DNA from: Phycisphaerae bacterium
Lineage (GTDB): Bacteria > Planctomycetota > Phycisphaerae > UBA1845
Direction: 5' to 3'
NCBI GenBank assembly: GCA_024102815.1
Contig: JAGFJJ010000010.1
Coordinates: 1-64,000 of the forward strand
Length of the DNA stretch: 64,000 nucleotides
Both the position numbers and the translations under genes were made by a program. Below are positions 43,924-58,360 of the stretch, piece after piece. How positions within the stretch are numbered: position 1 is the first letter of the stretch; each line of letters begins with the position of its first letter. The notes below the pieces were generated by a model that was not told where the DNA came from, did not search any database, and saw only the letters and a program-made list of their open reading frames with translations.

Positions 43924-46473
43924 ATGAGTCGCCGAACGACGGACAGCATGGAGGCGGAATTGCCTACGCCGAGGTCGCTCCTGCTGCCTCTGGCGGCGCT
44001 GACGGCATGTCTGTTTTTCTGGGCGGCGCTGCTGACATTCAACCCGGGCGACTGGCCCAGTCCTCACCAGTTTCCGCATAATCAACCGGCCGTGAACGCG
44101 TGCGGTCAGGTGGGCGCTTTCGGAGCGTACTGGCTGCGTCATGTTCTGGGCGATGGGGCCTATCCCCTGCTGCTGTTCTTTACGCTGATGGCGCTGTCGC
44201 GGCTGACGCAGGGGCCCATCGGGAGTCTGTGGGAGCGCGGTTTCGGACTGGCCCTGCTGGTCGGCGCGACATCCACGACCTCGTATTTGATGACCCGTGG
44301 GACGGCGACGGCGTCGCTGACGGGGCACGGAGGGCTGGTCGGGTTCGGGCTGGGTCGGTTGATGACCACGTACCTGGATCGGACGGGAACGATCATCGTC
44401 GTGGTTTCAAGCCTGATCGTGGGACTGCTGTTCATCACCGAGGGATGGGTCCTGCGCCTGCCGGGAATCGCCCGGCGGACAAGCGTGACGGCAGGAAATC
44501 AAGCGATTCGTGTGATCCGGGCGGCTTCGGCGACGGCGGGATCGGTGTTGAAACCGGCGATCGGGGTGACGGCCGAGGAAACCGAGGAACTTCTCGGAGC
44601 GCCGCGCGCACGCGCGTCGGCGGGATCGGGTTCGCGGAACAAGTCCGGGACCGCTCAAGGGAATCTCTTCGACGAGGAAGAGGCCGCGGAAGAAGAGCGC
44701 AAGTCAGCGCGCCGAGGACGCCGGACGGTGGAGCCGGAGGATGAGGAAGAGGACGAGGCCGTCGACGAAGTAGAAGAGGATGCGATCGACGAGGACGAGG
44801 AACTGGACGAAGACGTCGACGCCGAGGAGGAGGAGGAGGAGGAGGCGCCCGCCCAGGCCGCTCGTGCCCGTGCGGCGCGGGCGCTTGCCGGTCCCAAGGT
44901 GAACATGCCCAGTCCGCAGCGCATGGCGCGAGCGGAGCCCTATCCAAAGCAGATCGAGAACTGGCGGTTGCCGTCGCTGGATCTTCTGGAGGCGCCGCAG
45001 TTCAACTTCAGCGCCCAGCAGGAAACGGCCGTGCGGGAGCAGGCCAAAGTCCTGGAGGGCACGTTGAGCGAGTTCCGGCTGGACGCGCGGGTCGTGGAGA
45101 TCGACACGGGGCCGGTCATCACGATGTTCGAGCTGCGGCTGGGTTCGGGTGTGAAGGTCTCGCAGATTTCGGCCCTTTCGAATGATATCGCCCGGGCGCT
45201 GAAGGCACACGCCATTCGCGTGGTGGCGCCGATTTCGGGGAAAAACACGATCGGCGTCGAGGTTCCCAACCTGCAAAAGGAACAGGTCCGCCTGAAAGAG
45301 CTGATGACCATGGCGGGCAAAAAGGCGTCGGAGCAGAACCTGCCCCTCTTTCTTGGGAAAGACGCGAGCGGCGCGGCGCTGGTGACGGACCTGACCAAGA
45401 TGCCGCACCTGCTGATCGCGGGCACGACGGGATCGGGAAAGAGCGTGTGCCTGAATGCGATCATCCTCAGTCTGCTGATGACCAAACGGCCGGACCATGT
45501 GAAGCTGATTCTGATCGACCCGAAAATGGTGGAGATGAGTCAGTTCAAGGAAGTGCCGCACCTGATGTGTCCGATCGTCACGGACATGGCCCGGGCGGAG
45601 AAGATCCTGGAATGGGCCGTGACGAAAATGGACGAGCGCTACGAACTGCTGGCCGAGGCTCGCGTGCGAGACATCGCTTCGTACAACCGGCTGGGCGCGG
45701 ACGAGCTGTATCGGCGCATGGAGCCGACGACGGATGAAGAGAAGGCCCAGATTTCAACGCACCTGCCGTTCATCGTGATCGTGATCGACGAGCTTGCGGA
45801 CCTGATGATGACCTCGGCCAAGGAAGTCGAGCATCATCTGTCGCGGCTGGCGCAAAAGTCTCGGGCGGTGGGGATCCACATCATCGTGGCGACGCAGCGT
45901 CCCGAGGCGAAGGTGCTGACGGGGCTTATCAAATCCAACCTCCCTTGCCGGATTTGCTTCCGCGTGGCGTCGCGGCTGGACTCGCGGATCGTGCTCGACC
46001 AGAACGGCGGCGAGGTACTGCTGGGACAGGGCGATATGCTGCTGCTGCCGCCGGGCATGCATAAGCTGACGCGAGCGCAGGGAACGTTCCTGGACGACAG
46101 GGAGGTCCAAGCCGTCCTGGATGATCTTGCCAGCCGGGCCAAGCCGGAATTCCATCCGGAACTGGTGCGGATCAAGACGCCGGGCGAGGAAGGTGACCTC
46201 TCCCTGCGTGACCCGCTCTTCGACGATGCGGTGCGGATCATTCTCGAGTCGCGGCGCGGAAGCGTGAGTTTGCTTCAGCGGCGGCTCAACGTCGGCTATT
46301 CGCGGGCGTCGCGGCTGATCGACCAGATGGCGGAAGCGGGAATCGTCGGAGACTACAAGGGCTCGCAGGCGCGGGAAGTGACGCTGACGCTCGAGGAGTG
46401 GGATGCGATCCGGTCGCGGATGGAGGAAGAAGAGAACGAGGAGGCGACGGTATCGACGGAGCATGAAGGGTAG
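43924..46473 (+). CDS. ftsK: DNA translocase FtsK/SpoIIIE
   Basis: 849 aa. The N-terminal membrane region has about four helices (residues 20-190). An extremely acidic E/D linker (about 240-310) follows, then the alpha/beta motor with the domain start at ETAVREQAKVLEGTL and Walker A GTTGSGKS near residue 501, Walker B IVIVIDELADL near 620, and a C-terminal winged-helix gamma domain (SVSLLQRRLNVGYSRASRLI). FtsK pumps DNA at the septum and activates dif recombination. The last residues (EHEG) border on a heptad array. The tRNA-Leu integration hotspot lies just downstream. Confidence 0.96.
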   Translation: MSRRTTDSMEAELPTPRSLLLPLAALTACLFFWAALLTFNPGDWPSPHQFPHNQPAVNACGQVGAFGAYWLRHVLGDGAYPLLLFFTLMALSRLTQGPIGSLWERGFGLALLVGATSTTSYLMTRGTATASLTGHGGLVGFGLGRLMTTYLDRTGTIIVVVSSLIVGLLFITEGWVLRLPGIARRTSVTAGNQAIRVIRAASATAGSVLKPAIGVTAEETEELLGAPRARASAGSGSRNKSGTAQGNLFDEEEAAEEERKSARRGRRTVEPEDEEEDEAVDEVEEDAIDEDEELDEDVDAEEEEEEEAPAQAARARAARALAGPKVNMPSPQRMARAEPYPKQIENWRLPSLDLLEAPQFNFSAQQETAVREQAKVLEGTLSEFRLDARVVEIDTGPVITMFELRLGSGVKVSQISALSNDIARALKAHAIRVVAPISGKNTIGVEVPNLQKEQVRLKELMTMAGKKASEQNLPLFLGKDASGAALVTDLTKMPHLLIAGTTGSGKSVCLNAIILSLLMTKRPDHVKLILIDPKMVEMSQFKEVPHLMCPIVTDMARAEKILEWAVTKMDERYELLAEARVRDIASYNRLGADELYRRMEPTTDEEKAQISTHLPFIVIVIDELADLMMTSAKEVEHHLSRLAQKSRAVGIHIIVATQRPEAKVLTGLIKSNLPCRICFRVASRLDSRIVLDQNGGEVLLGQGDMLLLPPGMHKLTRAQGTFLDDREVQAVLDDLASRAKPEFHPELVRIKTPGEEGDLSLRDPLFDDAVRIILESRRGSVSLLQRRLNVGYSRASRLIDQMAEAGIVGDYKGSQAREVTLTLEEWDAIRSRMEEEENEEATVSTEHEG

Positions 46474-46510
46474 GGAAAGGCAATAGGCAATAGGCAATAG
46501 GCAATAGGAG
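46474..46510 (+). repeat. Heptad array after ftsK
   Basis: GGGAAA followed by four GGCAATA heptads, directly after the ftsK stop and 19 bp before attL. Confidence 0.88.
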
Positions 46511-46528
46511 GCGTCGTTCGTTCTGAAT

Positions 46529-46558
46529 TGCGGCTGGGGGGACTCGAACCCCCACGAC
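46529..46558. repeat. attL core
   Basis: A 30-bp exact copy of 57066-57095: TGCGGCTGGGGGGACTCGAA followed by CCCCCACGAC. It is a detached 3' tRNA-Leu end. The next base begins the detached integrase tail. Confidence 0.93.
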
Positions 46559-46741
46559 ACGTCCATAAAGCCCCGTCAATCAAGCACTTACAAGCGATCT
46601 GAAAACGACATATGTCGAGACATATGCTCCGAGGCCCTCGATCCCGAGTTGGCGGCCCTGGTGCGGGCGTGGCCCCGGCTGCCCGAGGCTCTCCGGGCTG
46701 GCATCATGGCGATGATTCGATCGACGGCGGACGGTGGGTAA
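46559..46741 (+). other. Detached C-terminal coding tail of the integrase
   Basis: Directly after the attL core, in the frame that the integrase uses in attR, 60 codons run to TAA at 46739. They include a coding-like stretch (LDPELAALVRAWPRLPEALR and AGIMAMI) that resembles C-terminal tails I recall from other site-specific integrases. No own start codon is needed if the circle rejoins it to int. Confidence 0.8.
46607..46626 (+). promoter_or_regulatory. Left arm-type repeat pair
   Basis: GACATATG-TCGA-GACATATG, two 8-bp copies 12 bp apart, 49 bp from the attL core. The same pair and spacing occur at 56903-56922. Confidence 0.65.
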
Positions 46742-46847
46742 ACTGTAAGCGGGTAGGTCGCTGATCCCGACCGAACCGAGCCGAGTGGAGATCGGACGCT
46801 ATCCCCCGATCCCCTCGGCCCGGGCCCGCCCTTAGGGGGGTAGCACC

Positions 46848-47552
46848 ATGCTCGATCAATTCCTGGCTGACGTGGCCCAAGCGGCCGACGAAGTAAGGCG
46901 ACTCATCCGAGATCACGGCACGGTGACGGTGCCCGGCCCCGTCGAGGGCTCGACGTGGGAGCTGTCCGAACGCGAGAAGCCCCTCGGGAAGCTGTGCGGC
47001 AAAGTACGCGACGCGGCGGATCGTGCTCGCCGATCTCTTGCTCCCAACGGCCCGACGCTGCTCTCCGGCAAGGTCGATGCAATCGAGGAGCTATTCCTCA
47101 GGTTCGCGGCCGATGCCTTGTACGCCCGGCGATCGAACGAGCCCCCGGCATCGGCTACCGAGATCGACACGGCAATCGGTGACGCCGTCAAGTATCGGTA
47201 CGCGGCCGACGGGGCAAGCACGCCCGAGGCTGCCCGGTTTACGCACTCCGATGATTTTATGAGTGTGCTGTGGGGCGAGCGAGTATTTCACTTTACCAAA
47301 TCGCAAGCGGCAGCGATCAAGCTCCTATGGCAAGCGTGGGAACGCGGCGGGCTTTCTGTGGCCGAGGAAACGCTTGGCGAGGCCGTGGGCAGCATTGCAG
47401 ATCGCTATCGGCTACTGCACACTTTTCGGAAGAATGGCAAGAATCATCCCGCCTGGGGCACGATGATCGTCAAAGCCGCTAAAGGCACCTATCGACTGGC
47501 TCCGCCCAACTCTATCGAGAATCACCAGAAATCACCAAACGTCAACCGTTAG
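46848..47552 (+). CDS. Hypothetical protein of the satellite, 234 aa
   Basis: Starts at ATG 46848, shortly after a GGGGGG run. The N-terminal half is helical (LDQFLADVAQAADEVRRLIR). The C-terminal half (about residues 145-225) has a winged-helix-like appearance (FTKSQAAAIKLLWQAWERGG, then SVAEETLGEAVGSIADRYRL, then WGTMIVKAAKGTYRL), suggesting DNA binding. The IS inserted at its stop codon; TAG is retained because both target and IS start supply it. Possibly a replication or regulatory factor of the element, but I cannot name it. Confidence 0.6.
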   Translation: MLDQFLADVAQAADEVRRLIRDHGTVTVPGPVEGSTWELSEREKPLGKLCGKVRDAADRARRSLAPNGPTLLSGKVDAIEELFLRFAADALYARRSNEPPASATEIDTAIGDAVKYRYAADGASTPEAARFTHSDDFMSVLWGERVFHFTKSQAAAIKLLWQAWERGGLSVAEETLGEAVGSIADRYRLLHTFRKNGKNHPAWGTMIVKAAKGTYRLAPPNSIENHQKSPNVNR

Positions 47553-47555
47553 AAA

Positions 47556-48026
47556 CTATCTCAAATTAGCCAGTCGCCATGATCGACGATACCACAGCAG
47601 AAGGCACGCCAGTTGAATCAAGCCGAGGTAGTTGTGCGCCTTTTTGTTGTAGCGGACGAGAATCGCGCGGCAACGATTCAACCAGCCCAGCGTGCGCTCC
47701 ACAACCCAGCGTCGTGCTGGCTTTGTCTTGCGAGATCGGTCGTCCATCTTCTCCTCGCCGATCCGACGGATGTGCGGATGGTATTCTCCGTTCACCGCAG
47801 CCGCACGGCCGGTCGGGTTATCATAGCCTTTATCCAAACACAGATGTTGTTCCTCGTCGTCCGGATCAGGACGCTCGACAACGATCGCTTCGATTGTCGC
47901 CTCCAGCAGCTTGGCGTCATGCACGTTCGCTGCCGCGACAACAACGCCCAGCGGACCGCCATCGCCCTCGACAATCACGCTGCGCTTGCAGCCGTTTTTC
48001 GCACGATCCGTCGGGTTTTTGCCCAC
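47556..48026 (-). CDS. IS5-family transposase, C-terminal part (orfB)
   Basis: 156 aa as an open frame, but the first codon (GTG) lies within the overlap and the real product is probably the frameshift fusion with orfA. It contains NPTDRAKNGCKRS, VAAANVHDAKLLEATI, the second catalytic Asp in CLDKGYD, and the catalytic Glu in RRWVVERTLGWLNR (DDE fold), ending in LACLLLWYRRSW. This is the C-terminal catalytic half of an IS5 transposase. Confidence 0.93.
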   Translation of the reverse strand: MGKNPTDRAKNGCKRSVIVEGDGGPLGVVVAAANVHDAKLLEATIEAIVVERPDPDDEEQHLCLDKGYDNPTGRAAAVNGEYHPHIRRIGEEKMDDRSRKTKPARRWVVERTLGWLNRCRAILVRYNKKAHNYLGLIQLACLLLWYRRSWRLANLR

Positions 48027-48439
48027 TTCGTCCCCCCCAAGCGCGCCTTGCCCATGGCCGCGTCACCGCTCTGCCACTGCCAGTCTACGCCATCGAGCTC
48101 ATCACAATGCTCGATCAGCAACGACCAGATTTCGGCAAACACGCCTTGTTCAATCCAGCGCTGCATTGTGCGATGCACCGAACTGTCGTCGCCGAACCGC
48201 TTGGGCAGCACGTTCCACTGACAACCGGTGCGCAACTGATAGATGATGCCGTTCAATGCTTTGCGGGCATCGATTCGGTTGCGACCCGGCCCCGGTTTGC
48301 GCGCATCCAACCGCTCCAACACCGGCTGAACATAATCGTTCCAGAGATCGTCCGGACACGCCCAGACGGTCTCCAACCGTTTGACACGCCGTTTCATTCT
48401 GGCCATCCATGGCTCCTTCCAAAAAGTCCATGACGCCAA
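47975..48439 (-). CDS. IS5-family transposase, N-terminal part (orfA)
   Basis: 154 aa with the DUF4096-type N-terminal domain of IS5 transposases: WACPDDLWNDYVQPVLERL, NGIIYQLRTGCQWNVLPKRFG, and the first catalytic Asp region SGDAAMGKA. A -1 slip on the G7 run at 48032-48038 joins it to orfB, giving LGGDEVGKNPTDR at the junction, which matches the family consensus. Without the slip it ends at TGA after 154 codons. Confidence 0.93.
   Translation of the reverse strand: MASWTFWKEPWMARMKRRVKRLETVWACPDDLWNDYVQPVLERLDARKPGPGRNRIDARKALNGIIYQLRTGCQWNVLPKRFGDDSSVHRTMQRWIEQGVFAEIWSLLIEHCDELDGVDWQWQSGDAAMGKARLGGTKWAKTRRIVRKTAASAA
48032..48038 (-). promoter_or_regulatory. -1 frameshift site (G7)
   Basis: TTGGGGGGGACG on the minus strand. 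Slipping back one base converts GGG-GGG-ACG into GGG-GGG-GAC and enters the orfB frame. Confidence 0.75.
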
Positions 48440-48504
48440 TATCGACAGGAAACGGCTTTTTGAGATAGTTTCTTAGTACACACCGTGCCCGGTAGACTTC
48501 GGGC

Positions 48505-48714
48505 ATGGAAACGCAACGGCTCGACAACCTACGGGCACTGGCACGCAAGCTCCAGCTCCCCGCCGATTGGCTAAAAGCTGAAGCCCGAGCCGGGCGGATT
48601 CCCTGTTTACAGGTTGGGCGGCAACTCAGATTCAACGCCGAGGCGGTAGAGCAAGCCCTTATACAACGTGCGACGGCGGAGCCCTCGAAGCAGGAGGGTC
48701 CGGCCAGTGAGTGA
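48505..48714 (+). CDS. Excisionase-like HTH protein 1
   Basis: 69 aa. It has the helix-turn-helix of excisionase/MerR-type domains: RALARKLQLPADWLKAEARAGRIPCLQVGRQLRF, with the typical G-R-I-P-x-x-x-V-G-R-Q-x-R-F wing. Such small proteins bind att arms or promoters of integrative elements. A 6-bp stem TGCCCG/CGGGCA reaches the start codon and no ribosome site is visible. It overlaps the next gene by 8 bp. It could be the excisionase or an AlpA-like activator. Confidence 0.82.
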   Translation: METQRLDNLRALARKLQLPADWLKAEARAGRIPCLQVGRQLRFNAEAVEQALIQRATAEPSKQEGPASE

Positions 48715-48934
48715 CATCCGGTTGACACCCGATCCTATGGGCGATCCCCTGCTCAATTCACGGAGTTTGTGCAAGTTCTTGGACTGCACCGATCGAACGC
48801 TCCGAACCTGGCGTGCCCTCGGGCGGCTCCCCGACGCGGACGTGTGCATCGGACGCAATCTTCGATGGCGACGCTCGACAATCGAGCGATGGCTTGAACA
48901 AGAAACCCGGCAGCGTGGCCGGTGTGATAGGTGA
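48707..48934 (+). CDS. Excisionase-like HTH protein 2
   Basis: 75 aa from GTG 48707, chosen for the AGGAGGG ribosome site; the frame is open further upstream. The HTH_17-type core is LLNSRSLCKFLDCTDRTLRT-WRALGRLPDADVCIGRNLRW, then RSTIERWLEQ. It is translationally coupled to HTH protein 1. Two different HTH_17 proteins in tandem allow one as excisionase and one as transcriptional activator. Confidence 0.82.
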   Translation: MSDIRLTPDPMGDPLLNSRSLCKFLDCTDRTLRTWRALGRLPDADVCIGRNLRWRRSTIERWLEQETRQRGRCDR

Positions 48935-48951
48935 TTTTCGAGAGGATAGCA

Positions 48952-49788
48952 ATGGCACGTGGACGACTGAAACCGAATTGGCAGGCACACTTTGTGTGCC
49001 CGGATTGTTTGGGATGTTCGGGCTGGCATGGCCCCGATCCGAGAGACGAAGTTTACGTCTGCGATGACTGCGAGACGTGGTGGCCCGGGTGCAATTTCGA
49101 TCCCGAGGATTCATTGCGAAAGCTGGACGCGGCGGAGGCGGCCGACAAAAAGGCCCGCTATCGTGAGGTTGCTTGCGTGCCCATGCCCGAGATCGTGATT
49201 GCGGAGCCGTGGGATAACCTCAGCACGTGCGTTTCCTGCAATAGTAGCTTTGCCGAGGATGAGCACTTCGGGCTGTCATTCTTTCACGAAAACTTGCTCT
49301 TTTCACTGTGCCGACGCTGCGGCGAACAACGCGATCTGCGACTCGCTCAATACGTCGCACTCCTGAATGCGGCGATCGGATTGCGGAAAGGCGACTGCCT
49401 GGCGATCGCCCGCAACAACGCAATGGCCGAATCACTTGCCCAATCGGGGGCACAACGAATTTACGGAGACGCGGGCGGGGGCGGATTGTTTAAGCTTGCA
49501 TTGGGGGCCGATGACGATGCGGCCGACATGAGCGTTTATTGCGGCCGATGCCCGGACTGCAACAAGGTGGGCGACTTGACGTGGCGTGATCCTGTGGTGC
49601 CTGTGTTTTGCTGCGATGATTGCAAGACTGTCTGGGGCATGAACGTGGGCACGATCTTCGGCGGCTGGCGGAGTATGTCCGAAGCGGACTTCGCTCGTGA
49701 GCGTGAGCGACTGGCGGGGTATCGCTGGTGTGGGGTTGGAGACGAGGTATCAAGCAAGGCCAGTGCCGAAGCAATTACCCCGTACTAA
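48952..49788 (+). CDS. Multi-zinc-ribbon protein
   Basis: About 278 aa from ATG 48952 (GAGAGGA upstream); in-frame ATG 48931 is possible. It has six CxxC pairs: FVCPDCLGC, VCDDCETW, CVSCNSSF, LCRRCGEQ, CGRCPDCNK, and CCDDCKTVW. These suggest three zinc ribbons. A helical region (about 115-180) lies between the second and third. No enzyme signature. Zinc-ribbon proteins next to a primase may help DNA binding or transcription takeover, but this is inference. Confidence 0.65.
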   Translation: MARGRLKPNWQAHFVCPDCLGCSGWHGPDPRDEVYVCDDCETWWPGCNFDPEDSLRKLDAAEAADKKARYREVACVPMPEIVIAEPWDNLSTCVSCNSSFAEDEHFGLSFFHENLLFSLCRRCGEQRDLRLAQYVALLNAAIGLRKGDCLAIARNNAMAESLAQSGAQRIYGDAGGGGLFKLALGADDDAADMSVYCGRCPDCNKVGDLTWRDPVVPVFCCDDCKTVWGMNVGTIFGGWRSMSEADFARERERLAGYRWCGVGDEVSSKASAEAITPY

Positions 49789-49832
49789 TGAGAAACCCGC
49801 CCCATACAGGCGGCGGGCGGAGTGATGACTAG

Positions 49833-52373
49833 GTGAATCATACTGATCCCAATTCCCCCCCGCAACGGCCCCGAGCTGGTGAGTTGCCCCCCGAAGCTCG
49901 CCAGCTCCTGGGGCTGATCTTCAAGCCGGATGATCTCATCGAGTTCCGGATCATCGATCCCGATGGCACCGTCGATCGAAGCTGGACTACCCTAGCAAAG
50001 CCGAGCCCGGCGGCCGTGGCGAATATGATCGGTGGCAATTCGGTGAAGCGGGCGGGTATTTACTTCTCGGTGTGTGCTCGCAAGCACAAGGGGGGGAAGA
50101 AACAAGACGTTGCCCGGGCTCGATCACTGTGGGGTGACTTCGACGGGATGACGCCCGACGAAGTTGCCTATCGATGCAACGAGCTGGGCATCCCCCCGAC
50201 GATCATCATATCCAGCGGCGGCGGCACTCACCTTTATTGGGTACTCGATGAGCCGATCGAGTTCGACAGCCCCGAGGCGATCGCCAAAGTCGAGAACGCA
50301 AACAAGCGGATCGCACAAGCGATCGGCGGGGATCACGTGTGCGACGTTTCAAGGGTGCTGCGACTGCCGGGCTTTCTCAACGCGAAATATGATCCTGCAC
50401 GCCCCTGCACAATCGTGAAGCTCGACGGCCCCCGGTGGGACTTCGATCGGCTCTTGGAGTTTCTGCCCGAGTTGCCGGCGGCTCCAACGCCCTCGGCGGA
50501 CGGCAACGGCAAGCATCGCGGCCCCGTCAATCACGCCCTGGTCGGCCGTGCGATGGAAATGCTGGCGGCCGATCCGGGGGACGGAGATCGCTCGCGGCGG
50601 GATCACGGAGCACTCTGCACACTGTATCGAGCGGGATGCACTCAAGAACATGCACAAGCCCTGTGCTCCGGTTTCTCGAAATTCGGCGACGGGCGAAAAG
50701 ATTACTTTGCACGCTCCTGGGTAGCGGCAATAGCGGCGACGAAAAACGAAACCCCCCGTGGCGACCCCGCCAGTAAGGGTTTTGTCACCGTCGCCAGTGC
50801 AGAGAGTTTGAAAATCGATATCCCGGCATGGCGGCCGTGCCCCGTCGAGGCCCTCCCCCCGAGGCTCTTGGAGATCGTGACGGCGATCTCCTCGGCGACT
50901 TCTACTGATCCGGCTTACGCTACCCTCGGTGTGCTCACAGCGGCGGCGGGGTGCATAGGCAATCGGGTAGCTGTGCTGCTCAAGGGGGGCTGGGTGGAGC
51001 CCTCGATATTGTGGGGCGGGATCGTAGGCCGATCCGGCGTGACGAAGAGCCCGGTAGTCAAGGCCGTCACACGCCCCCTCGTGCAGCTCTATCAGCAAGA
51101 TCGGCAAGCTTTCGCCGAGGCGATGACTGAGCACGCTATAGCTGAAGAGCGGTACGGGATCGAGCTTGCGGCGTGGAAGGCCGCTCAAAAAAAAGGCCCG
51201 CCTACTGATCCCCCGGTACGTCCAGAGAAGCCTAAACAGAGACGCGTGCTCATCGGTGACATAACCATTGAGGCCGTGGGTGCCAAGCATAGTGAGAATC
51301 CGCTCGGGCTGATCGCTGTGCGTGAAGAGCTTGCAAGCTGGGTAGGCTCATTCGACCGCTATGCCAGCGGCGGTAAGGGCTCGGACTCCGGGGCTTGGCT
51401 CTCAATGTACGACGCAACTCCCCTTGTGATCGATCGTAAGGGCGGAGACTCGATATTCATCCCCCGTGCGGCTGTGAGCATATTCGGCAGCATACAGCCC
51501 GGTATTCTGCGGCGTTACTTTGGTGCCAAGGAACGTGAATCCGGCCTACTCGCTAGGCTGCTGCTCACGTACCCCCCCGAGCGTGCTCCGGTATGGACGG
51601 AAGCCGAGCTGGCTGAGGGTGTAGAATCTCGTTGGGGGAGCCTGCTCGGTATGCTCCTGGGGCTCCTGCCCGGCATCGACGACGACGGCAACCCGAGGCC
51701 CCGGTACCTACCCCTCGGCGATAGTGCTAAGGCCTTGTGGATACCCTGGCACAACGCCCATGCCCAAGAGACGGTGGAGATCTCCAACGACGATCTCGGG
51801 GCTCACTTGGCAAAGCTCCGGGGTGTGTGTGCTCGGTTGGCCCTGATCTTTGCCTGTGTGCGTGCAGCGGATCACAACGCCCCCGTAAACAGCATCGGCC
51901 CCGAGGATATGCAACGGGCGATCACGTTCACGGATTGGCTCAAGTGTGAAGCCGGTAGGGTGTATGCCCTGCTTAACGAGACGGATGCACAGCGTGAGTA
52001 TCGCCAGCTTCTAGAGTGGATCACTCGACGTGGGGGATCGTGCTCTGTGCGTGATCTCACCCGAGGCCCCCGGCAGTATCGGGATGATCCCGAACACGCC
52101 CAGGCTGCACTAGAGCGTTTGGCTGAAGCGGGCTTCGGTACCCTCGGGTACGACTCCGGGCCCGGCCGGCCAAGTCTCAAGTTTCGGATCACTTCCAGTG
52201 GCGACGGCGACGAAACCCCTTGCGACGCTATCACCAATGAGGGTTTCGATTTTGAGACAGTGGATATCGAGGCTGATCCGACGTGTGGGACATCGGCGGT
52301 GGAATACCCCGACGTGCTGCCCGAGGAGTGTACGGGGAGCGATCCCCCAGCGGATTATCGTTATGGTACTTGA
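49833..52373 (+). CDS. Primase/DUF3987 replication protein
   Basis: 846 aa from GTG 49833. The N-terminal archaeo-eukaryotic primase-like domain (about residues 40-210) has the metal motif LWGDFDG, SSGGGTHLYWVLDEP and the RVLRLPGFLNAKYDP motif. Residues about 330-640 are a DUF3987-like (YfjI) helicase core with an altered P-loop GRSGVTKS near 398 and VREELASWVGSFDRYASGGK. A C-terminal winged-helix-like segment (QLLEWITRRGGSCSVRDLTR) follows. This type of protein starts autonomous replication in phages, satellites and plasmids. It is followed by the small terminase. Confidence 0.9.
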   Translation: MNHTDPNSPPQRPRAGELPPEARQLLGLIFKPDDLIEFRIIDPDGTVDRSWTTLAKPSPAAVANMIGGNSVKRAGIYFSVCARKHKGGKKQDVARARSLWGDFDGMTPDEVAYRCNELGIPPTIIISSGGGTHLYWVLDEPIEFDSPEAIAKVENANKRIAQAIGGDHVCDVSRVLRLPGFLNAKYDPARPCTIVKLDGPRWDFDRLLEFLPELPAAPTPSADGNGKHRGPVNHALVGRAMEMLAADPGDGDRSRRDHGALCTLYRAGCTQEHAQALCSGFSKFGDGRKDYFARSWVAAIAATKNETPRGDPASKGFVTVASAESLKIDIPAWRPCPVEALPPRLLEIVTAISSATSTDPAYATLGVLTAAAGCIGNRVAVLLKGGWVEPSILWGGIVGRSGVTKSPVVKAVTRPLVQLYQQDRQAFAEAMTEHAIAEERYGIELAAWKAAQKKGPPTDPPVRPEKPKQRRVLIGDITIEAVGAKHSENPLGLIAVREELASWVGSFDRYASGGKGSDSGAWLSMYDATPLVIDRKGGDSIFIPRAAVSIFGSIQPGILRRYFGAKERESGLLARLLLTYPPERAPVWTEAELAEGVESRWGSLLGMLLGLLPGIDDDGNPRPRYLPLGDSAKALWIPWHNAHAQETVEISNDDLGAHLAKLRGVCARLALIFACVRAADHNAPVNSIGPEDMQRAITFTDWLKCEAGRVYALLNETDAQREYRQLLEWITRRGGSCSVRDLTRGPRQYRDDPEHAQAALERLAEAGFGTLGYDSGPGRPSLKFRITSSGDGDETPCDAITNEGFDFETVDIEADPTCGTSAVEYPDVLPEECTGSDPPADYRYGT

Positions 52374-52487
52374 GTTAGTACAGTGTGGGTGTAGTGCCCT
52401 TGCAATCTCGGGTAGCTGGCCATTTATAGACCGTGTGCCCAACGTGCATTTTTTCGAGCCGTTGCCGACTGAAAATGGATATTCGCC
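52374..52487. other. Gap between primase and terminase genes
   Basis: 113 bp with no gene. Candidate place for a replication origin or pac-like site, but I see no iterons. Confidence 0.3.
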
Positions 52488-52838
52488 ATGAGCAAAGAAA
52501 CCATTAAGGCCCCCAAGCACTTGAAACCCGCCACTCGGCGTTGGTTCGAGGAGATCGCGGCCGAGTTCGAGCTTGAAGCCCATCACGTGAAGCTGCTCAC
52601 ACTGGCGGCTGAGTCGTGGGATAGGTGCCAAGGTGCTCGGGAGCTGCTCGACAAGTCGGGTGTGTCCTATACGGATCGCTTCGGGTGCCCGCGATCCCGG
52701 CCCGAAGTGGCTGTCGAGCGTGACTCCCGGCTGGCCTTTGCTCGCCTTGTACGGGAGCTGGGGCTCGATGTGGCACCCGAGCCCGGGCGGGTGCCTCGGT
52801 TATCGCCTACCGGCCCGGCCAAGAAAGGCGGTGCGTGA
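52488..52838 (+). CDS. P27-family phage terminase small subunit
   Basis: 116 aa. The P27-type pattern is visible: IKAPKHLKPATRRWFEEIAAEF, then LLTLAAESWDRCQGARELLD, a middle segment with YTDRFGCPRSRPEVAVERD, and the C-terminal RLAFARLVRELGLD helix. Small terminases recognise pac/cos DNA and bring it to the large terminase. Here no large terminase follows, so packaging would need a helper phage, as in PICIs. It overlaps the next gene start (GTGATG). Confidence 0.87.
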   Translation: MSKETIKAPKHLKPATRRWFEEIAAEFELEAHHVKLLTLAAESWDRCQGARELLDKSGVSYTDRFGCPRSRPEVAVERDSRLAFARLVRELGLDVAPEPGRVPRLSPTGPAKKGGA

Positions 52839-53374
52839 TGCCCCCTTACCGAAAAAGAACATCACGGCGGCAGCGGCCCGGCTTGGAGCTTACCGACGCT
52901 GTGCGTGCTCTCCTGGAGCGGGGCTCGACGATTCTCATCGAGCTGGAACGTGGGCTCCGGCACCATGTCGATGATGATGAGATTCGGGCATTGTGGGAAT
53001 TGCACGGCGAGCAGATCACTCGCGAGTGGGCTGCGAAATATCCCGGCTCCCGGCCGTATCACTGGTGGACATTTGATGCGCCTGAAAAGCGTTTGTGCTT
53101 GGGCGGTGTGCACTGGTTCGATGATCCCACGTGGAAAGCGGCGGTGGCCGAGGCCCATGCGGAGTACCCTGATATCTACGGCGTGGTCGGTGGATACTAC
53201 GGGCTGTCCCGCGGCGTGCCTCGGATTTGGAGTAGGGAGCTTGCCAGCAATGCGGCGGGCGATGACTTCGAGACTGAAGCCGAGTTCTTGACTCGGCTCG
53301 GGCTGTGGTTGCCCGGTGAATGTGAGCGGTGGGAGAGTCTACCCCCCGAGAATGATGCTGATGATGAGGAGTAA
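52838..53374 (+). CDS. Hypothetical protein next to terminase, 178 aa
   Basis: ATG 52838 overlaps the TGA of the terminase gene. It has a helical N-terminus, a central RPYHWWTFDAPE segment that recalls phage proteins of the form RPWxWWRxDAPE encoded beside terminase genes, and a C-terminal ETEAEFLTRLGLWLPGECERW. Function unknown, but the type is found in phage packaging neighbourhoods. Confidence 0.65.
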   Translation: MPPYRKRTSRRQRPGLELTDAVRALLERGSTILIELERGLRHHVDDDEIRALWELHGEQITREWAAKYPGSRPYHWWTFDAPEKRLCLGGVHWFDDPTWKAAVAEAHAEYPDIYGVVGGYYGLSRGVPRIWSRELASNAAGDDFETEAEFLTRLGLWLPGECERWESLPPENDADDEE

Positions 53375-53380
53375 GAAACA

Positions 53381-53707
53381 ATGGCGAGTGCTACGAAAGT
53401 CGAGCGTGACGTTGGCGAGCGAGTGCAGGAGTTGTGCAGGTCGGTATCTGAAGCCGGTAGGCATTTCGTCGAGGCGGCTTCGGATCGAAGCGTGCTCACG
53501 CTGGCATTGAACGAAAACCGCGACTTGCAAAACAAGCTTCGAGGCCGACTGCATATCGTGCTCGGACAAGAGGCCGATGATATCGCCGAGGAGTTGGATC
53601 ACTTATGGCATCGATCGCGGCGGCTGCTCGACATTCAATCGAGCATCGGTCGGATCGTGGTGGAATTGAAGCGTATGACTGAGGCTATCCAAGCAATAGG
53701 AGAGTGA
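53381..53707 (+). CDS. Helical hypothetical protein, 108 aa
   Basis: Almost entirely alpha-helical with heptad character (VGERVQELCRSVSEAGRHFV, LNENRDLQNKLRGRLHIVLG). Tightly packed 7 bp after the previous gene and 5 bp before the next, so one operon. Unrecognised. Confidence 0.65.
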   Translation: MASATKVERDVGERVQELCRSVSEAGRHFVEAASDRSVLTLALNENRDLQNKLRGRLHIVLGQEADDIAEELDHLWHRSRRLLDIQSSIGRIVVELKRMTEAIQAIGE

Positions 53708-53711
53708 ACGT

Positions 53712-54050
53712 ATGACAACGGACATGAAACTTCTGGCGACGATCGAGAACCTGGCCGAGGAAACTGCTCCGCTCCGTGATTCGACACGGCGTATCGAGGA
53801 GCTGCGGCTGATGGAGAAATCGTATCGAACCCTGGCGACCCGGGCGGCGGATCGACAGCGTGAAGCGGGATACAACGGCGACTATGCAGCGTCGAGTTCG
53901 GCGGGGCATGAGAACGAAGCTTTCCGCGTTTGTGCCGACATCACCCGCGACGTGGCCGAGACTCTCCTATCCCTGCAAACCCTGGGCGGGCGGTTTAAAT
54001 CGCTGCGGCGACGGCTCGAAGAAGAGCTCGCCAAGAAAGTAGGTGCCTGA
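53712..54050 (+). CDS. Helical hypothetical protein, 112 aa
   Basis: Predicted helical (MKLLATIENLAEETAPLRDS, then RFKSLRRRLEEELAKKVGA). It is similar in size and character to the previous protein, perhaps a pair of coiled-coil partners. The next gene starts 3 bp after its stop. Unrecognised. Confidence 0.65.
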   Translation: MTTDMKLLATIENLAEETAPLRDSTRRIEELRLMEKSYRTLATRAADRQREAGYNGDYAASSSAGHENEAFRVCADITRDVAETLLSLQTLGGRFKSLRRRLEEELAKKVGA

Positions 54051-54052
54051 CC

Positions 54053-54844
54053 ATGCCATATTATTCATCAACATTGGCGCAAAAGGCCGACTTCCTAGCG
54101 GGTTTCGTGCGGCACTGGTCAAAAAACCTAGACCAGCTTGAGAGAATGTCGGCACGCTCAGCGGAGGATGATGTGGAAGCCCTCTTCAGGGAAATTCACC
54201 ATCTTGCGACAGAGGAAGAATATCGTTGGCTGCAACGGTATCGCCCGGTGATCGACAAACTCAAAGGGGCGATATCGGGGCGTGCCGAACGGCGTTATTT
54301 AACGGCGAAAGCAGCAAGGCGGCTGCAAGAACCGCCAAGCACGGCCCAAGGTTGGGCGATATGCGGGCTGGCCAGCGTGTTCGAGGATGATCTCGACGAT
54401 GGCACAAGGTTCTGGATTCTGCCCGATGCTTACGAGACTGTCGCCCCCAGGGCTTTCGATAAAGCACTGCGGGAGCGACAAGCGGTGAAGTGCCTTATCA
54501 CCCACGATCGGCGATACGAGATCGGCTCGACAACGCGGGGCAATCTATCATTGTCCACCACATGCAAGGGGCTGCTATACGAGAATACCCTGACGGTGGA
54601 TTCTGCCATAGTTCGCAAAGCCCTCGGGGCAGTGTGGGATGGTGCCCTTGCCGGATCATCGTTTTGTTTTCAATTGGCGGCCGACGGCTCGGGCGAAGAG
54701 TATCGACTGTTGCCGGGCAATGTTGTGCATCGGCGGATTCTGGAAGTTGAGAAGCTCATCGACGTTGGCCCGTGTGAGCGTGGAGCGTACGCCTCGGCCA
54801 CGACGTACACAATGCGTGTCGATCAATTGGCACTCTCAGCGTGA
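54053..54844 (+). CDS. HK97-like prohead protease with helical N-terminal extension
   Basis: 263 aa. From about residue 95 the sequence follows the S78/U35 prohead protease pattern. AQGWAICGLASVFEDDLDDG and ILPDAYETVAPRAFDKALR are followed by the active-site His in CLITHDRRYEIGSTT (about 149), then the Ser in LAGSSFCFQLA (about 202), and the closing ILEVEKLIDVGPCERGAYAS strand. The first ~95 residues are a helical extension not usual in the family. In phages this enzyme cleaves scaffold and capsid during head maturation. Here no capsid gene is present, so it may act on a helper's proheads or have lost that role. Confidence 0.72.
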   Translation: MPYYSSTLAQKADFLAGFVRHWSKNLDQLERMSARSAEDDVEALFREIHHLATEEEYRWLQRYRPVIDKLKGAISGRAERRYLTAKAARRLQEPPSTAQGWAICGLASVFEDDLDDGTRFWILPDAYETVAPRAFDKALRERQAVKCLITHDRRYEIGSTTRGNLSLSTTCKGLLYENTLTVDSAIVRKALGAVWDGALAGSSFCFQLAADGSGEEYRLLPGNVVHRRILEVEKLIDVGPCERGAYASATTYTMRVDQLALSA

Positions 54845-54997
54845 TCGGGCTCCCCGTTACGCTGTGGTCGGGCTGTGCAGCACGCTCCGGCCGGTCGTTC
54901 CGTGACGGCTGGGGCGGTGCTCCCCCGCGTTAATGTGTGAACGAATCGGCGTGGTGCCGATCGCTGGTTATGTGGCTTATTATTTGGAGTATTTGCT

Positions 54998-55174
54998 ATG
55001 TTGTTTGTTGAAGTAAGTGCAGAGAACGGCCGGATATTGTTTCCGTTGAATGAGGTCGCTTTCGTTGAAGAAAAGGACGGTTCAGCGGTCGTTGTTTCGA
55101 AGGTCGGAGGTAAACGCTACCAGTGCGTTCGTTCGTTCGATGAGCTCAAAGCCCTGACCACACCGGCCGAGTAG
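54998..55174 (+). CDS. Small hypothetical protein, 58 aa
   Basis: ATG 54998 with GGAG upstream. MLFVEVSAENGRILFPLNEV continues into a second beta hairpin and a short helix (RSFDELKALTTPAE). The composition looks like a small beta-barrel or SH3-like fold. Codon use is AT-richer than the neighbours. It is preceded by 150 bp without a gene. Unrecognised. Confidence 0.6.
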   Translation: MLFVEVSAENGRILFPLNEVAFVEEKDGSAVVVSKVGGKRYQCVRSFDELKALTTPAE

Positions 55175-55183
55175 GAAGCGTCA

Positions 55184-55408
55184 ATGGCTGGCCGGGTAAA
55201 CCCCTTGTCCGATGCCCGGATCGGCGGGAGCAAAGCCGAAGCTCCGCCCCCGATGAGCAGCCCGCCGACAAGTCGAGACGGCCAGTATTCCGACGGCATC
55301 GAGGAGCGAAGCCCCGGCGACGCGGACAAGCTCCCGACTCGTGATGCCGTGTTCGCCAAGCACGTGCAGCGGATCGGTCGATGGCTGCGGCGGCATCGGA
55401 CGGGTTGA
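55184..55408 (+). CDS. Small hypothetical protein, 74 aa
   Basis: MAGRVNPLSDARIGGSKAEA, low complexity, Pro/Ser-rich, with a basic C-terminal helix (FAKHVQRIGRWLRRHRTG). It starts 9 bp after the previous stop. May be genuine but disordered. Confidence 0.45.
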   Translation: MAGRVNPLSDARIGGSKAEAPPPMSSPPTSRDGQYSDGIEERSPGDADKLPTRDAVFAKHVQRIGRWLRRHRTG

Positions 55409-55440
55409 CGGGATATCGACAACGGGATAAGCTATCCGGC

Positions 55441-55656
55441 ATGAATACGGATCAACTCAACGCGGCGGCCCGGCAGCACTTCGAGAAGCTCGGCATAAGC
55501 ATGAACGAGCTTTGCCGACGATCCGGGCTCGGATACGCGACGGTACACAATTGGTGCTCGGGTGCCCGACAAGGCACGGTGGAGCTGGCGACATTCGTAC
55601 GGATCGCCGAGGCCCTCGGGCTCGACATCCGGCTGGTGCGACGGCGAAAGGGGTAG
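55441..55656 (+). CDS. XRE-family regulator
   Basis: 71 aa Cro/CI-type HTH: ISMNELCRRSGLGYATVHNW, then CSGARQGTVELATFVRIAEA, then LGLDIRLVRR. It sits directly before the integrase, 2 bp from its start codon, and is likely the element's master repressor or the regulator of int. In PICIs a comparable repressor (Stl) keeps the element silent. Confidence 0.85.
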   Translation: MNTDQLNAAARQHFEKLGISMNELCRRSGLGYATVHNWCSGARQGTVELATFVRIAEALGLDIRLVRRRKG

Positions 55657-55658
55657 CG

Positions 55659-57116
55659 ATGGCCCATATCTTTAAGGCTAGGCATCCGAAAATGCGGACG
55701 GCTCGCGGGCGTGACGGCTCGCCGATCATGGTGGAGAAGATCGCGGCCCGAGGCCCCAACAAAGGCAAGCGTGTGCTCGTGCCTCAGCGGGAGCCGGTGC
55801 TCGGCCGTGACGGCAAGCCGGTGTACGTCGAGGCGGATGTATATTCCATCGCTTACACCGATGCCAGCGGCAAGCGTAAGACGGCATCCGGCTATCGTGA
55901 TCTCGCCTCCGCCAAGCAGAAGCTCGCCACGATTGAACGGAGCGTCGAGCGGCAGCGGGCGGGCATCGTCGATGTTTCCTTCGAGCACGGCGAGAAAGCC
56001 CTCGACAAGCACGTTGCCGACTGGATCGACGATCTTCAGCGGGCGGGGCGTGCATACCAGTACACCCGGAAGCTGCACGATCGGATGAAGCTGATTACCA
56101 ACGAGATCGGCTGGACAAAACTCGGCCATATCGACGTGGATAGCTTCTCCTCCTGGCTCGGACGAAAGCGGCGGGCGGGGCTGTCCGATCGGACGTGCAA
56201 TCACTACATCGAGGCTGTGCGTGCCTTGTGCAATTGGCTGGTAAGCCACAAGCGGATGGAGAAGAACCCGATCGCGGGCATCGCCAAGGCCGAAGCTACC
56301 GAGCCGGTGATCCCCCGGCGGGCGGCGACCCTCGATGAGCTTGGCAAGATCGTGACGGCCAAGCGTGGCCGAGGGCTGATCTATCGCACGCTGGCTTACA
56401 CGGGGCTGCGGCGGATGGAGTGCCAAGCACTTCGCTGGGGTGATCTACTGCTCGACGATCCCAAGCCCGCGATCCAGCTACGGGCGAGCACGACGAAGAG
56501 CCGACGGGCGGACGCGATCCCCCTGCCGGCGGACTTGGCCAAGCTGCTCCGTGAGTATCGCCCCGAGGGCTGGAAGCCCGGTGACACGGTGTTCGGCCCC
56601 CTGCCGACGTATCGCACGTTTCGACGTGATCTCAAGAGCATGGGCATTGAACCGATCACGGATGCCGGGCGGCTCGATCTTCATTCCCTGCGGGTAACGT
56701 ACGGGACGATGCTCGCCAAGGCTGGCGTGAACATCCGTACGGCGATGGAGTTGATGAGACACACGGACATCCGGCTCACGACTCGTGTCTATACCGATGC
56801 CCGGCTTCTCGATACGGCTGGAGCGGTGGAGCAGCTCCCCCGGCTGGACGATTCGCCGCAGCAGGAGCAAGCCCGAGCGACGGGTACGGACGGGCGATCT
56901 CAGACATATGTTGAGACATATGTTGAGGGGCTTCCGAAAGGGCGTAAAACTTACCGGATGCCTAACAAAATGGACGATCGGCCCGTAAGTGCCGACGGTG
57001 CGAAAAAGCCTATAAAACAAGGCAAAAACGCACAAAAACGAAGTGACAAGATTCTGTCACTTAACTGCGGCTGGGGGGACTCGAACCCCCACGACCTCTC
57101 GGCCACTGGATCCTAA
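55659..57116 (+). CDS. int: Tyrosine integrase, C-terminus formed by the att site
   Basis: 485 aa from ATG 55659 (AAAGGGG ribosome site). A basic N-terminal arm-binding region (about 1-80), a SAM-like core-binding domain (about 115-215) and the catalytic domain follow. Catalytic residues are Arg in TGLRRME (about 250), Lys in STTKSRRAD, HxxR in LHSLR (about 342-345), His in MRHTD and Tyr in TRVYTD (about 377). The frame enters the att core exactly in codon register (10 codons: CGWGDSNPHD) and ends after LSATGS inside tRNA-Leu. In the excised circle it would instead continue into the 60 codons at 46559-46741, giving 539 aa. Confidence 0.95.
   Translation: MAHIFKARHPKMRTARGRDGSPIMVEKIAARGPNKGKRVLVPQREPVLGRDGKPVYVEADVYSIAYTDASGKRKTASGYRDLASAKQKLATIERSVERQRAGIVDVSFEHGEKALDKHVADWIDDLQRAGRAYQYTRKLHDRMKLITNEIGWTKLGHIDVDSFSSWLGRKRRAGLSDRTCNHYIEAVRALCNWLVSHKRMEKNPIAGIAKAEATEPVIPRRAATLDELGKIVTAKRGRGLIYRTLAYTGLRRMECQALRWGDLLLDDPKPAIQLRASTTKSRRADAIPLPADLAKLLREYRPEGWKPGDTVFGPLPTYRTFRRDLKSMGIEPITDAGRLDLHSLRVTYGTMLAKAGVNIRTAMELMRHTDIRLTTRVYTDARLLDTAGAVEQLPRLDDSPQQEQARATGTDGRSQTYVETYVEGLPKGRKTYRMPNKMDDRPVSADGAKKPIKQGKNAQKRSDKILSLNCGWGDSNPHDLSATGS
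56903..56922 (+). promoter_or_regulatory. Right arm-type repeat pair
   Basis: GACATATG-TTGA-GACATATG, two copies 12 bp apart inside the int coding sequence, 144 bp from the core. The same DNA repeat on the left arm is in a different reading frame, so protein coding does not explain it. Confidence 0.65.
57066..57095. repeat. attR core
   Basis: The 30-bp core shared with 46529-46558. It forms the last 30 nt of tRNA-Leu and ten codons of int. Confidence 0.93.
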
Positions 57117-57149
57117 GTCCAGCGCGTCTGCCAATTCCGCCACAGCCGC
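57066..57149 (-). tRNA. tRNA-Leu(TAG), integration site
   Basis: 84-nt class II tRNA on minus. Acceptor stem GCGGCTG/CAGCCGC with discriminator A, anticodon loop CTTAGGA closed by CTGGA/TCCAG, a long variable arm, and T-loop GGTTCGAGTCC. Anticodon TAG reads CUA and probably other CUN codons. The 3' part is supplied by the element and is intact. Confidence 0.97.
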
Positions 57150-57174
57150 AAGCTGCCGTTCGGGCGCATTCGGA

Positions 57175-58356
57175 TCAGGGCTGAGCGCCATCGCCCGGGG
57201 CGGATGCGGGCGAGAGCGAACGGGCCGCGCGCAGAAAATACTCATACGCCGCCCGCACCTCGTCCAACGTATCGCCGCCGAACTTCTCGAGGAACGCCCT
57301 CCCGATCTCAAAGGCGACGACATTCTCCGCAACTACGCTGGCCGCTGCAACCGCTGCCACATCGCTGCGCTCGTAGTCGGATCGCTCGGGGGTAAGTGTC
57401 AAAAGATTGACACTCGGCATACCCCGCAGGAGCGTGCTGATCGGTTTCATCGCGGCCCGCAGGACGATCGGCGCGCCGTTCGTCATGCCACCTTCGATTC
57501 CCCCCGCGTTGTTCGTCGGCCGCACGAATCCGAGCGAGGGCAGGTTTCGCTCGGCCGGGCTGAAGGTAATTTCGTCGTGTACCGCGCTGCCGGGCAACCG
57601 GGCTGCGCCGAATCCCAGGCCGATCTCCACACCCTTGATCGCCTGAATGGAGCCGACGGCCTGCATGATGCGGCCATCCAGCTTGTCCTGCCAGCGCATG
57701 CAAGAGCCCAATCCCGGTGGATGTCCGGTCACGTGTACTTCAACCACACCGCCGACCGTGTCCCGATCGGCGGCGGCGCGATGAATAACGTCGATCATGC
57801 GCAGAGCGGCCGCGGCGTCGGGGCAATAGGCTTCGTTGGCGTCGCGATTCCGCCGAAGATCATCGGGAGCCGTATCGAGGTCGACGGCCGCTTCAGCCCC
57901 CTCGATCGACTTGACGAAGCCCACGACGTCAATGCCGAATTCGTCCAGCAGGTTGCGCACCAAGGCGCCCGCCGCGACACGGGCAGCGGTCTCTCGCGCC
58001 GAGGCCCGTTCGAGCGTCTCGCGACAATCCACGGTCAAGAACTTGAGGCTTCCGGCCAGATCGGCATGACCCGGACGGGGGCGATGAACCGCCGGCGCCT
58101 CGTCGATGCGGACATCGCGGTTGACGATCTGAAGCGCAAGGGGCGAACCGATCGTCCGGCCTCCGCGAATCCCCGAGAGGATCTGGACCTCATCGTGCTC
58201 AATTCGCTGCCGACCGCCTCGGCCGTAGCCACCCTGCCGTCGACGGAGCTCTCCGTTGATGCGGTCCTCGCGAACCGTAACGCCCGCCGGCAGGCCCTCC
58301 ACCAGCGCAATCAGCGCTTTACCGTGCGATTCACCGGCGGTGCGATAGTCGAGCAT
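57175..58356 (-). CDS. aroC: Chorismate synthase
   Basis: 393 aa, FMN-dependent last step of the shikimate pathway (EPSP to chorismate). Family motifs: GESHGKALIALVEGLPAG at residues 8-25, RRQGGYGRGGRQ, RPGHAD, and the late RSDYERSDVAAVAAASVV. ATG 58356 is chosen because MLDYRTAGESHG is the conserved N-terminus; the frame is open further upstream into ftsY. Operon-like with ftsY, nusB and ribH (gap to ftsY stop 4 bp). Confidence 0.97.
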   Translation of the reverse strand: MLDYRTAGESHGKALIALVEGLPAGVTVREDRINGELRRRQGGYGRGGRQRIEHDEVQILSGIRGGRTIGSPLALQIVNRDVRIDEAPAVHRPRPGHADLAGSLKFLTVDCRETLERASARETAARVAAGALVRNLLDEFGIDVVGFVKSIEGAEAAVDLDTAPDDLRRNRDANEAYCPDAAAALRMIDVIHRAAADRDTVGGVVEVHVTGHPPGLGSCMRWQDKLDGRIMQAVGSIQAIKGVEIGLGFGAARLPGSAVHDEITFSPAERNLPSLGFVRPTNNAGGIEGGMTNGAPIVLRAAMKPISTLLRGMPSVNLLTLTPERSDYERSDVAAVAAASVVAENVVAFEIGRAFLEKFGGDTLDEVRAAYEYFLRAARSLSPASAPGDGAQP

Positions 58357-58360
58357 CGGA

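Follow-up and report, generated by a model that had tools for sequence, protein, structure and literature searches.

What kind of mobile element occupies the tRNA-Leu(TAG) gene on contig JAGFJJ010000010.1 of a Phycisphaerae bacterium (assembly GCA_024102815.1; the 64,000 nucleotides analysed are called the window here), and what does its integrase gene, which runs into that tRNA, tell us about it? A preliminary description had read it as a satellite resembling the phage-inducible chromosomal islands (PICIs). The element spans positions 46529-57095, ca. 10.5 kb, or 9.6 kb once an insertion sequence (IS) of 921 bp is subtracted, and is bounded by the perfect 30-bp direct repeat described earlier; both copies are identical, the right one forms the 3′ end of the tRNA gene, and for an identity of 30 bp ending exactly there chance is excluded. 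The observation of a bounded element with the genes collected in Table 1 is thus confirmed. We consider it very probable that the attachment site of the free form, attP, is located within the integrase gene, and probable that this is an integrated phage satellite, one of a family in the Phycisphaerae, with a proposed helper-dependent life cycle.

The integrase gene (55659-57116) crosses the right copy of the repeat, the core, and stops within the tRNA gene, from which the last 6 of its 485 residues are read. When the two ends of the element are joined at the core, as in the circular form, the integrase frame stays open (offset 0) and gains 60 codons from position 46559 on, ending in DPELAALVRAWPRLPEALRAGIMAMIRSTADGG, which gives a full integrase of 539 aa. 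This detached tail (46559-46738), which carries the motif DPELAALVRAWPRLPEALRAGIMAMIR, is absent from the preliminary description, and a non-coding end at 46.6 kb has to be rejected since it encodes the tail. Between the core and the first residues of the tail motif there is no in-frame start codon. The same end-joining was applied to all 13 bounded elements in which the integrase frame enters the core, and the motif W-x-x-L-P-x-x-hydrophobic-R with its neighbouring residues was recovered in 11 of them, the present element included; a random site has a probability of 0.0018 of showing such an open frame plus the motif. A tail profile constructed without loci L038, L049, L051, L067 and L123 matches the distal ends of the first four, co-oriented with the integrase, at E-values of 1e-9 to 1e-14, and gives a weaker match in L123. 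Furthermore, two 35.7-kb IMG/VR contigs contain an unsplit integrase in which the catalytic domain, a stretch resembling a tRNA 3′ end (GGGATTCGAACC) and the tail follow each other in a single frame, and this locus lacks a tRNA gene. They are identical over 5.9 kb and, therefore, perhaps represent one virus; a gene near the integrase matches a phage minor-head family. Such an unsplit integrase is what one would predict for a free genome that carries attP. As a separate observation, tail motifs also occur directly downstream of an integrase, beyond the att site, in L082 (5283-5363 and 7412-7495) and L096 (12630-12713); these may be tandem insertions, in which one integrase then gained the tail of another element.

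The catalytic residues R251, H342, R345 and Y378 all precede residue 479, at which the junction falls; with these invariant residues located before it, integration alters the tail while leaving the active site intact. The tail gave no Pfam match, and the integrase matches PF00589 instead of PF16795 (Phage_integr_3). The tail may act as a regulatory switch, a proposal to which we give even chances. Alternatively, the read-through may be neutral and the tail without function, with attP overlapping the gene end simply because the 3′ end of the tRNA is the target. The location of every invariant catalytic residue before the junction is consistent with this, as is the lack of the motif in two bounded elements (L100 and L110). 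A functionless tail seems nevertheless rather unlikely, since the motif has been kept in spite of its location at the far end of the element and of a non-conserved linker in front of it, which argues for selection on the full-length integrase.

The element is not alone. Relatives of its primase occur in 120 of the 397 genomes examined (30%), a sample that covers part of the class and often consists of short contigs. In the 61 primase neighbourhoods read, an integrase is the next gene, on the same strand and at ≤4 kb, in 54 cases, and its 3′ end adjoins a tRNA in 33, with ca. 20 tRNA types represented. The 3′ part of the tRNA is repeated at the far end in 14 relatives (4.9-9.9 kb), so that 15 bounded elements of 4.9-10.5 kb are available when the present one is included; a second bounded element in the host genome (L037; 8.5 kb) sits at a tRNA-Cys with a 65-bp repeat. 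Recognised genes follow the order excisionase, primase, XRE regulator, integrase, tRNA, all co-directional, with few exceptions (e.g., L059, where the integrase starts at the tRNA). The co-directional layout reported earlier, which we confirm (all genes except the IS are on the + strand), is, therefore, a trait of the family. Scans of the 53 other proteins of the 14 relatives with Pfam and PHROGs revealed no large terminase (TerL), portal or tail families; fusions of a head protease with a capsid protein (phrog_4523, PF25209) are among these proteins. Genes for heads or packaging are carried by 6 of the 15 bounded elements: a small terminase (TerS) and a protease by the present one, TerS by L045 and L059, and a protease-capsid fusion by L040 (interrupted by a stop), L107 and L115. 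Among the loci with unmapped ends, TerS is found in L067, L122 and L176 and the fusion in L089, L123 and L124; the unbounded L079 has a TerL-like fragment near the primase on the opposite strand. These packaging types fall on different branches of the primase tree, in which the labelled rows are too few to count gains or judge clustering. The earlier suspicion of a new family is, hence, supported: throughout the class, small elements that are bounded by repeats and lack TerL, portal and tail genes carry this backbone at many tRNAs.

The genes previously listed for the element (integrase, XRE regulator, two HTH_17 proteins, primase and P27 small terminase) were all recovered by Pfam, PHROG or NCBIfam matches (Table 1), with HTH_17 corresponding to PF12728 and the DUF3987 domain of the primase to PF13148. 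In agreement with the preliminary description, large terminase, portal, capsid and tail genes were not found in the element, and neither was a lysis gene. The reading that no structural gene at all is present was incorrect, since an HK97-type prohead protease is encoded. This protease has an N-terminal extension of ~90 residues and retains His151 and Ser203, which are invariant among the aligned relatives. A single-sequence AlphaFold model of it reached a pLDDT of 38 and was not used; comparison of the protease and TerS with solved structures gave chance-level matches only. TerS and the protease enclose three small open reading frames (ORFs), in the place where TerL and portal would be expected: full head operons of prophages in the class (L119, L120, L125) read TerS-TerL-portal-S78 protease, and L116 and L117 show this order from TerL onward. 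TerS and protease of the element thus stand in the order of a prophage head operon, minus TerL and portal. The ORFs between them are intact, tightly packed and have a codon-position bias like that of the adjoining genes, which indicates that this stretch is not visibly decaying. A search for protease relatives by peptide patterns in the genome and viral contigs revealed no direct one, and TerS, orf179 and orf112 had no match among annotated phages.

Table 1. Features of the element in the tRNA-Leu(TAG) gene and their positions in the window.
Feature	Position	Strand	Remarks
attL core, 30 bp	46529..46558	.	identical to attR
Detached 60-codon integrase C-terminal tail	46559..46738	+	in frame only in the circle
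234-aa protein, no assigned function	46848..47552	+	homologues in family elements L043, L044, L046, L065, L067, L092
IS5-family insertion sequence	47552..48472	-	DUF4096 + DDE_Tnp_1 ORFs, terminal repeats, TTA target duplication
HTH_17/excisionase-like protein	48505..48714	+	Pfam 2.4e-4 (below curated cut-off); phrog_1840 excisionase 2.2e-7
Second HTH_17 protein, AlpA/excisionase type	48668..48934	+	Pfam 4.6e-8
Cysteine-rich protein, 285 aa	48931..49788	+	no family match
Primase-helicase, RepB-type primase domain + DUF3987	49833..52373	+	RepB_primase 1.8e-6; DUF3987 2.2e-67
Small terminase TerS, P27/Terminase_4 family	52488..52838	+	Terminase_4 6e-5; TIGR01558 P27 1.9e-7
orf179, no family assigned	52835..53374	+	overlaps TerS stop
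orf108, no family assigned	53381..53707	+	
orf112, no family assigned	53712..54050	+	
HK97-type prohead protease (Peptidase_S78)	54053..54844	+	PF04586 1.1e-21, over cut-off; TIGR01543 4.8e-11, below cut-off
58-aa ORF, no family assigned	54998..55174	+	
74-aa ORF, no family assigned	55184..55408	+	
XRE-type regulator, directly upstream of integrase	55381..55656	+	HTH_3 4.8e-7
Tyrosine integrase, 485 aa integrated / 539 aa circular	55659..57116	+	PF00589 1.2e-15
tRNA-Leu(TAG), integration target, restored	57065..57150	-	
attR core	57066..57095	.	within both integrase ORF and tRNA

The IS5-family sequence, which the preliminary description had not reported, directly follows the stop codon of the first gene and is a later passenger outside the core element. 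Inspection of the intergenic stretches for iterons or an origin yielded only repeats of chance size, and in a scan for RNA families the tRNA alone was matched. The element is flanked by ftsK (43924-46473) and aroC (57175-58497, minus strand), and its G+C content is 60.3% vs. ~63.4% in the flanks. A tRNA-Leu(TAG) gene lies close behind aroC, with no integrase of the element's kind next to it, in 11 family relatives (mostly at ≤300 bp and within ~1.3 kb in one); the element has, therefore, inserted at a site that is otherwise vacant, vacancy being defined by this tRNA-aroC linkage and not extending to the exact empty junction. The search of related genomes at tRNA-Leu that had been suggested thus found vacant sites and no full phage in these 11 relatives. 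Conservation of ftsK as the left neighbour was not found among the relatives, where this neighbour varies. A short tandem repeat of AATAGGC units lies between ftsK and attL (46480-46515).

A search for a co-resident helper had also been suggested. Two contigs of the host genome, C26 and C31, end inside a TerS-TerL module (the two modules match at 92% over 819 bp), and a further head protease is encoded on C70. No DNA is shared between the window and the first 20 kb of C26. No PF05065 capsid, PF04860 portal or complete helper was found in the assembly, but with the modules on C26 and C31 cut by contig ends the helper may be incomplete in the assembly, or external. The protease of C70 belongs to a tRNA-Pro element (L036, 1780-14605) that also encodes Sak4-like and resolvase-like proteins and in which no capsid or portal was recognised. 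Loci on C26 (L056, 1-8600) and C31 (L057, 1-8000), as well as L071 and L074 in genome G019, combine primase/ParB-type genes with a TerS-TerL pair. TerL is directly followed by an integrase-like fragment in L071 and L074, and no portal or capsid was found in either. These four loci could be either broken prophages or elements with a terminase only.

Do these data point to a satellite? On the basis of its gene content and relatives we regard the element as quite likely one, and several results weigh against this. In nine of the 15 bounded elements no gene for phage heads or packaging was recognised, PF05065 (capsid) and PF04860 (portal) are without a match in the host assembly, both family scores of TerS are under the curated cut-offs (it does join a 12-member TerS profile of the class), no close relative of the exact TerS-protease cassette was found, and the tail motif is missing from L100 and L110. 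The order of TerS and protease, that of a full prophage head operon of the class, could also be explained by decay of an HK97/P27-type prophage, with integrase, primase, TerS and protease retained and the genes for TerL, portal, capsid, tail and lysis gone. The IS would fit such a history, as would the related DUF3987 primases of viral contigs that also encode TerL, portal and capsid (L178-L180). Decay is, however, improbable in view of the many small elements with the same backbone, a tight size range and intact bounding repeats, the intact and codon-biased ORFs between TerS and protease, and the retention of the tested catalytic residues of both integrase and protease. Small bounded elements without TerL, portal or tail, six of them with head or packaging genes, fit satellites better than decayed prophages.

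The nine bounded relatives without a recognised packaging gene raise another possibility, namely a general integrative mobile element that spreads in a non-satellite way (e.g., by conjugative mobilisation or natural transformation), its phage genes being accidental or serving interference (satellite-derived defence). Several of these relatives carry other cargo, and single cargo proteins gave PADLOC, Pfam and PHROG matches. Against this stand the lack of any relaxase or conjugation family in the proteins scanned and the independent recurrence of head and packaging genes across the family, and we consider this explanation decidedly improbable. The satellite is, hence, the part of the original interpretation that stands as the best reading, given the recurrence of small bounded elements, while the assignment to PICIs does not.

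If the element is indeed a satellite, infection by or induction of a helper would lead to its excision by the integrase and an HTH_17 protein, after which the primase would replicate the excised circle. Its TerS would then steer the large terminase of a P27/HK97-type helper onto satellite DNA, maturation or size of the helper heads would be changed by the protease (possibly together with the small ORFs), and helper tails would deliver the DNA. The entering circle would make the 539-residue integrase, and integration would remove the conserved tail, so that 485 residues including the whole catalytic domain remained. The shortened integrase would be a built-in record of the integrated state, and its activity would most likely be limited or redirected. 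Such a switch could conceivably operate through stability, as in the BPs repressor (PMC4557955), through synapsis or through a block on re-integration, none of which we favour. The full proposal, i.e. a bacterial satellite family (with at least one related virus) that has attP in the integrase gene, a tail-swap switch that spares catalysis, and modular, interchangeable head parts that redirect helper heads, is tentative, and we hold it to be slightly less probable than its opposite.

By its core genes the element is closest to the phage-inducible chromosomal minimalist islands (PICMIs) of Vibrionaceae, which have an integrase, an AlpA/HTH_17 protein (PF12728) and a DUF3987 or DUF5906 primase (PMC10803314): PF00589, PF12728 and PF13148 are all present, its size is small and, as with iolg in PICMIs, a small gene directly precedes the integrase gene, overlapping it in some relatives. 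However, PICMIs reside at fis, whereas this element lies at tRNA-Leu(TAG) between ftsK and aroC and its family at tRNAs in Phycisphaerae, and PICMIs encode nothing for capsid remodelling, whereas some of the elements here carry TerS, protease or capsid genes. With PICIs, including the Staphylococcus aureus pathogenicity islands, it shares integrase, regulator, excisionase, primase and sometimes TerS, and a capsid homologue is carried by some PICIs (PMC6092414). A divergent regulator pair, with int to one side and xis/primase to the other, is lacking, the genes of the element (except the IS) and the mapped genes of the family being co-directional; moreover, it measures 9.6 kb vs. about 15 kb and has a prohead protease. 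PICIs have a unique att site that no prophage uses; for the site here, the vacancy in 11 relatives was recorded. Capsid-forming PICIs (cf-PICIs) are, as summarised in PMC10690885, defined by their own capsid, protease, portal, connectors, TerS, TerL and HNH; relative to that summarised list the element has the head maturation protease and TerS and lacks capsid, portal, connectors, TerL and HNH. It departs from the definitions of both PICIs and cf-PICIs, in each case in a defining feature that was tested. The names of P4 alpha primase, psu, delta and sid did not appear in the Pfam, PHROG and NCBIfam scans, in which no dedicated model for them was run.

The position of attP recalls the SSV-type suicidal integrases of archaea, whose genes contain attP and are split on integration (PMC8371274). 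The archaeal split, however, parts an N-terminal piece from the catalytic domain, whereas here only a C-terminal tail behind that domain is lost; the integrase is of the ordinary bacterial PF00589 type and gave no match to PF16795, the domain of the SSV type, excision is not obviously blocked, and the element is not a member of that family. In mycobacteriophage BPs attP likewise lies within a gene and integration changes the C-terminus of the protein, which is shortened and altered in behaviour, but that gene encodes a repressor with a degradation tag on its long form (PMC4557955), whereas here it is the integrase.

Some further observations concern head genes elsewhere in the class. A charged-residue-rich protein of 220-250 aa (coiled-coil-like by eye) lies directly ahead of TerS in three satellites, in the regions 6325-8004 of L045, 7535-9190 of L067 and 6585-8170 of L059, with a ~135-aa protein between it and TerS in L045 and L067; scaffold or size-determining proteins are a possible identity for the charged proteins. 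Phage_capsid_4 (PF25209) proteins occur in 161 of the 397 genomes, and nearly every genome of the family to which the host belongs has one additional weak PF25209 match (E ~1e-10), which might represent an HK97-fold protein conserved on the chromosome, e.g. an encapsulin. Genome G220 (7.4 Mb) encodes a protease-capsid fusion of ~700 aa at about 12 loci; we rejected these S78 frames as satellites, the three that were read (L061, L062, L064) being related prophages with TerL and portal.

Publications on phage satellites of Planctomycetota were not found in the open-access papers searched, which is weak as evidence, and a family of small tRNA elements that borrow a gene or two for phage heads or packaging is apparently undescribed. 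Such a class-wide family, with primase relatives in 30% of the sampled genomes, would add to the known range of satellites a phylum of which few phages have been studied. If the element is a satellite, its combination of a prohead protease with no capsid gene would point to manipulation of helper heads via maturation. The self-splitting bacterial integrase contradicts the statement in a 2021 review that recombinases disrupting their own gene are exclusively archaeal (PMC8371274); its architecture offers a testable mechanism by which an element records its own integration and, if true, would represent a bacterial counterpart of the archaeal suicidal integrases that spares catalysis.

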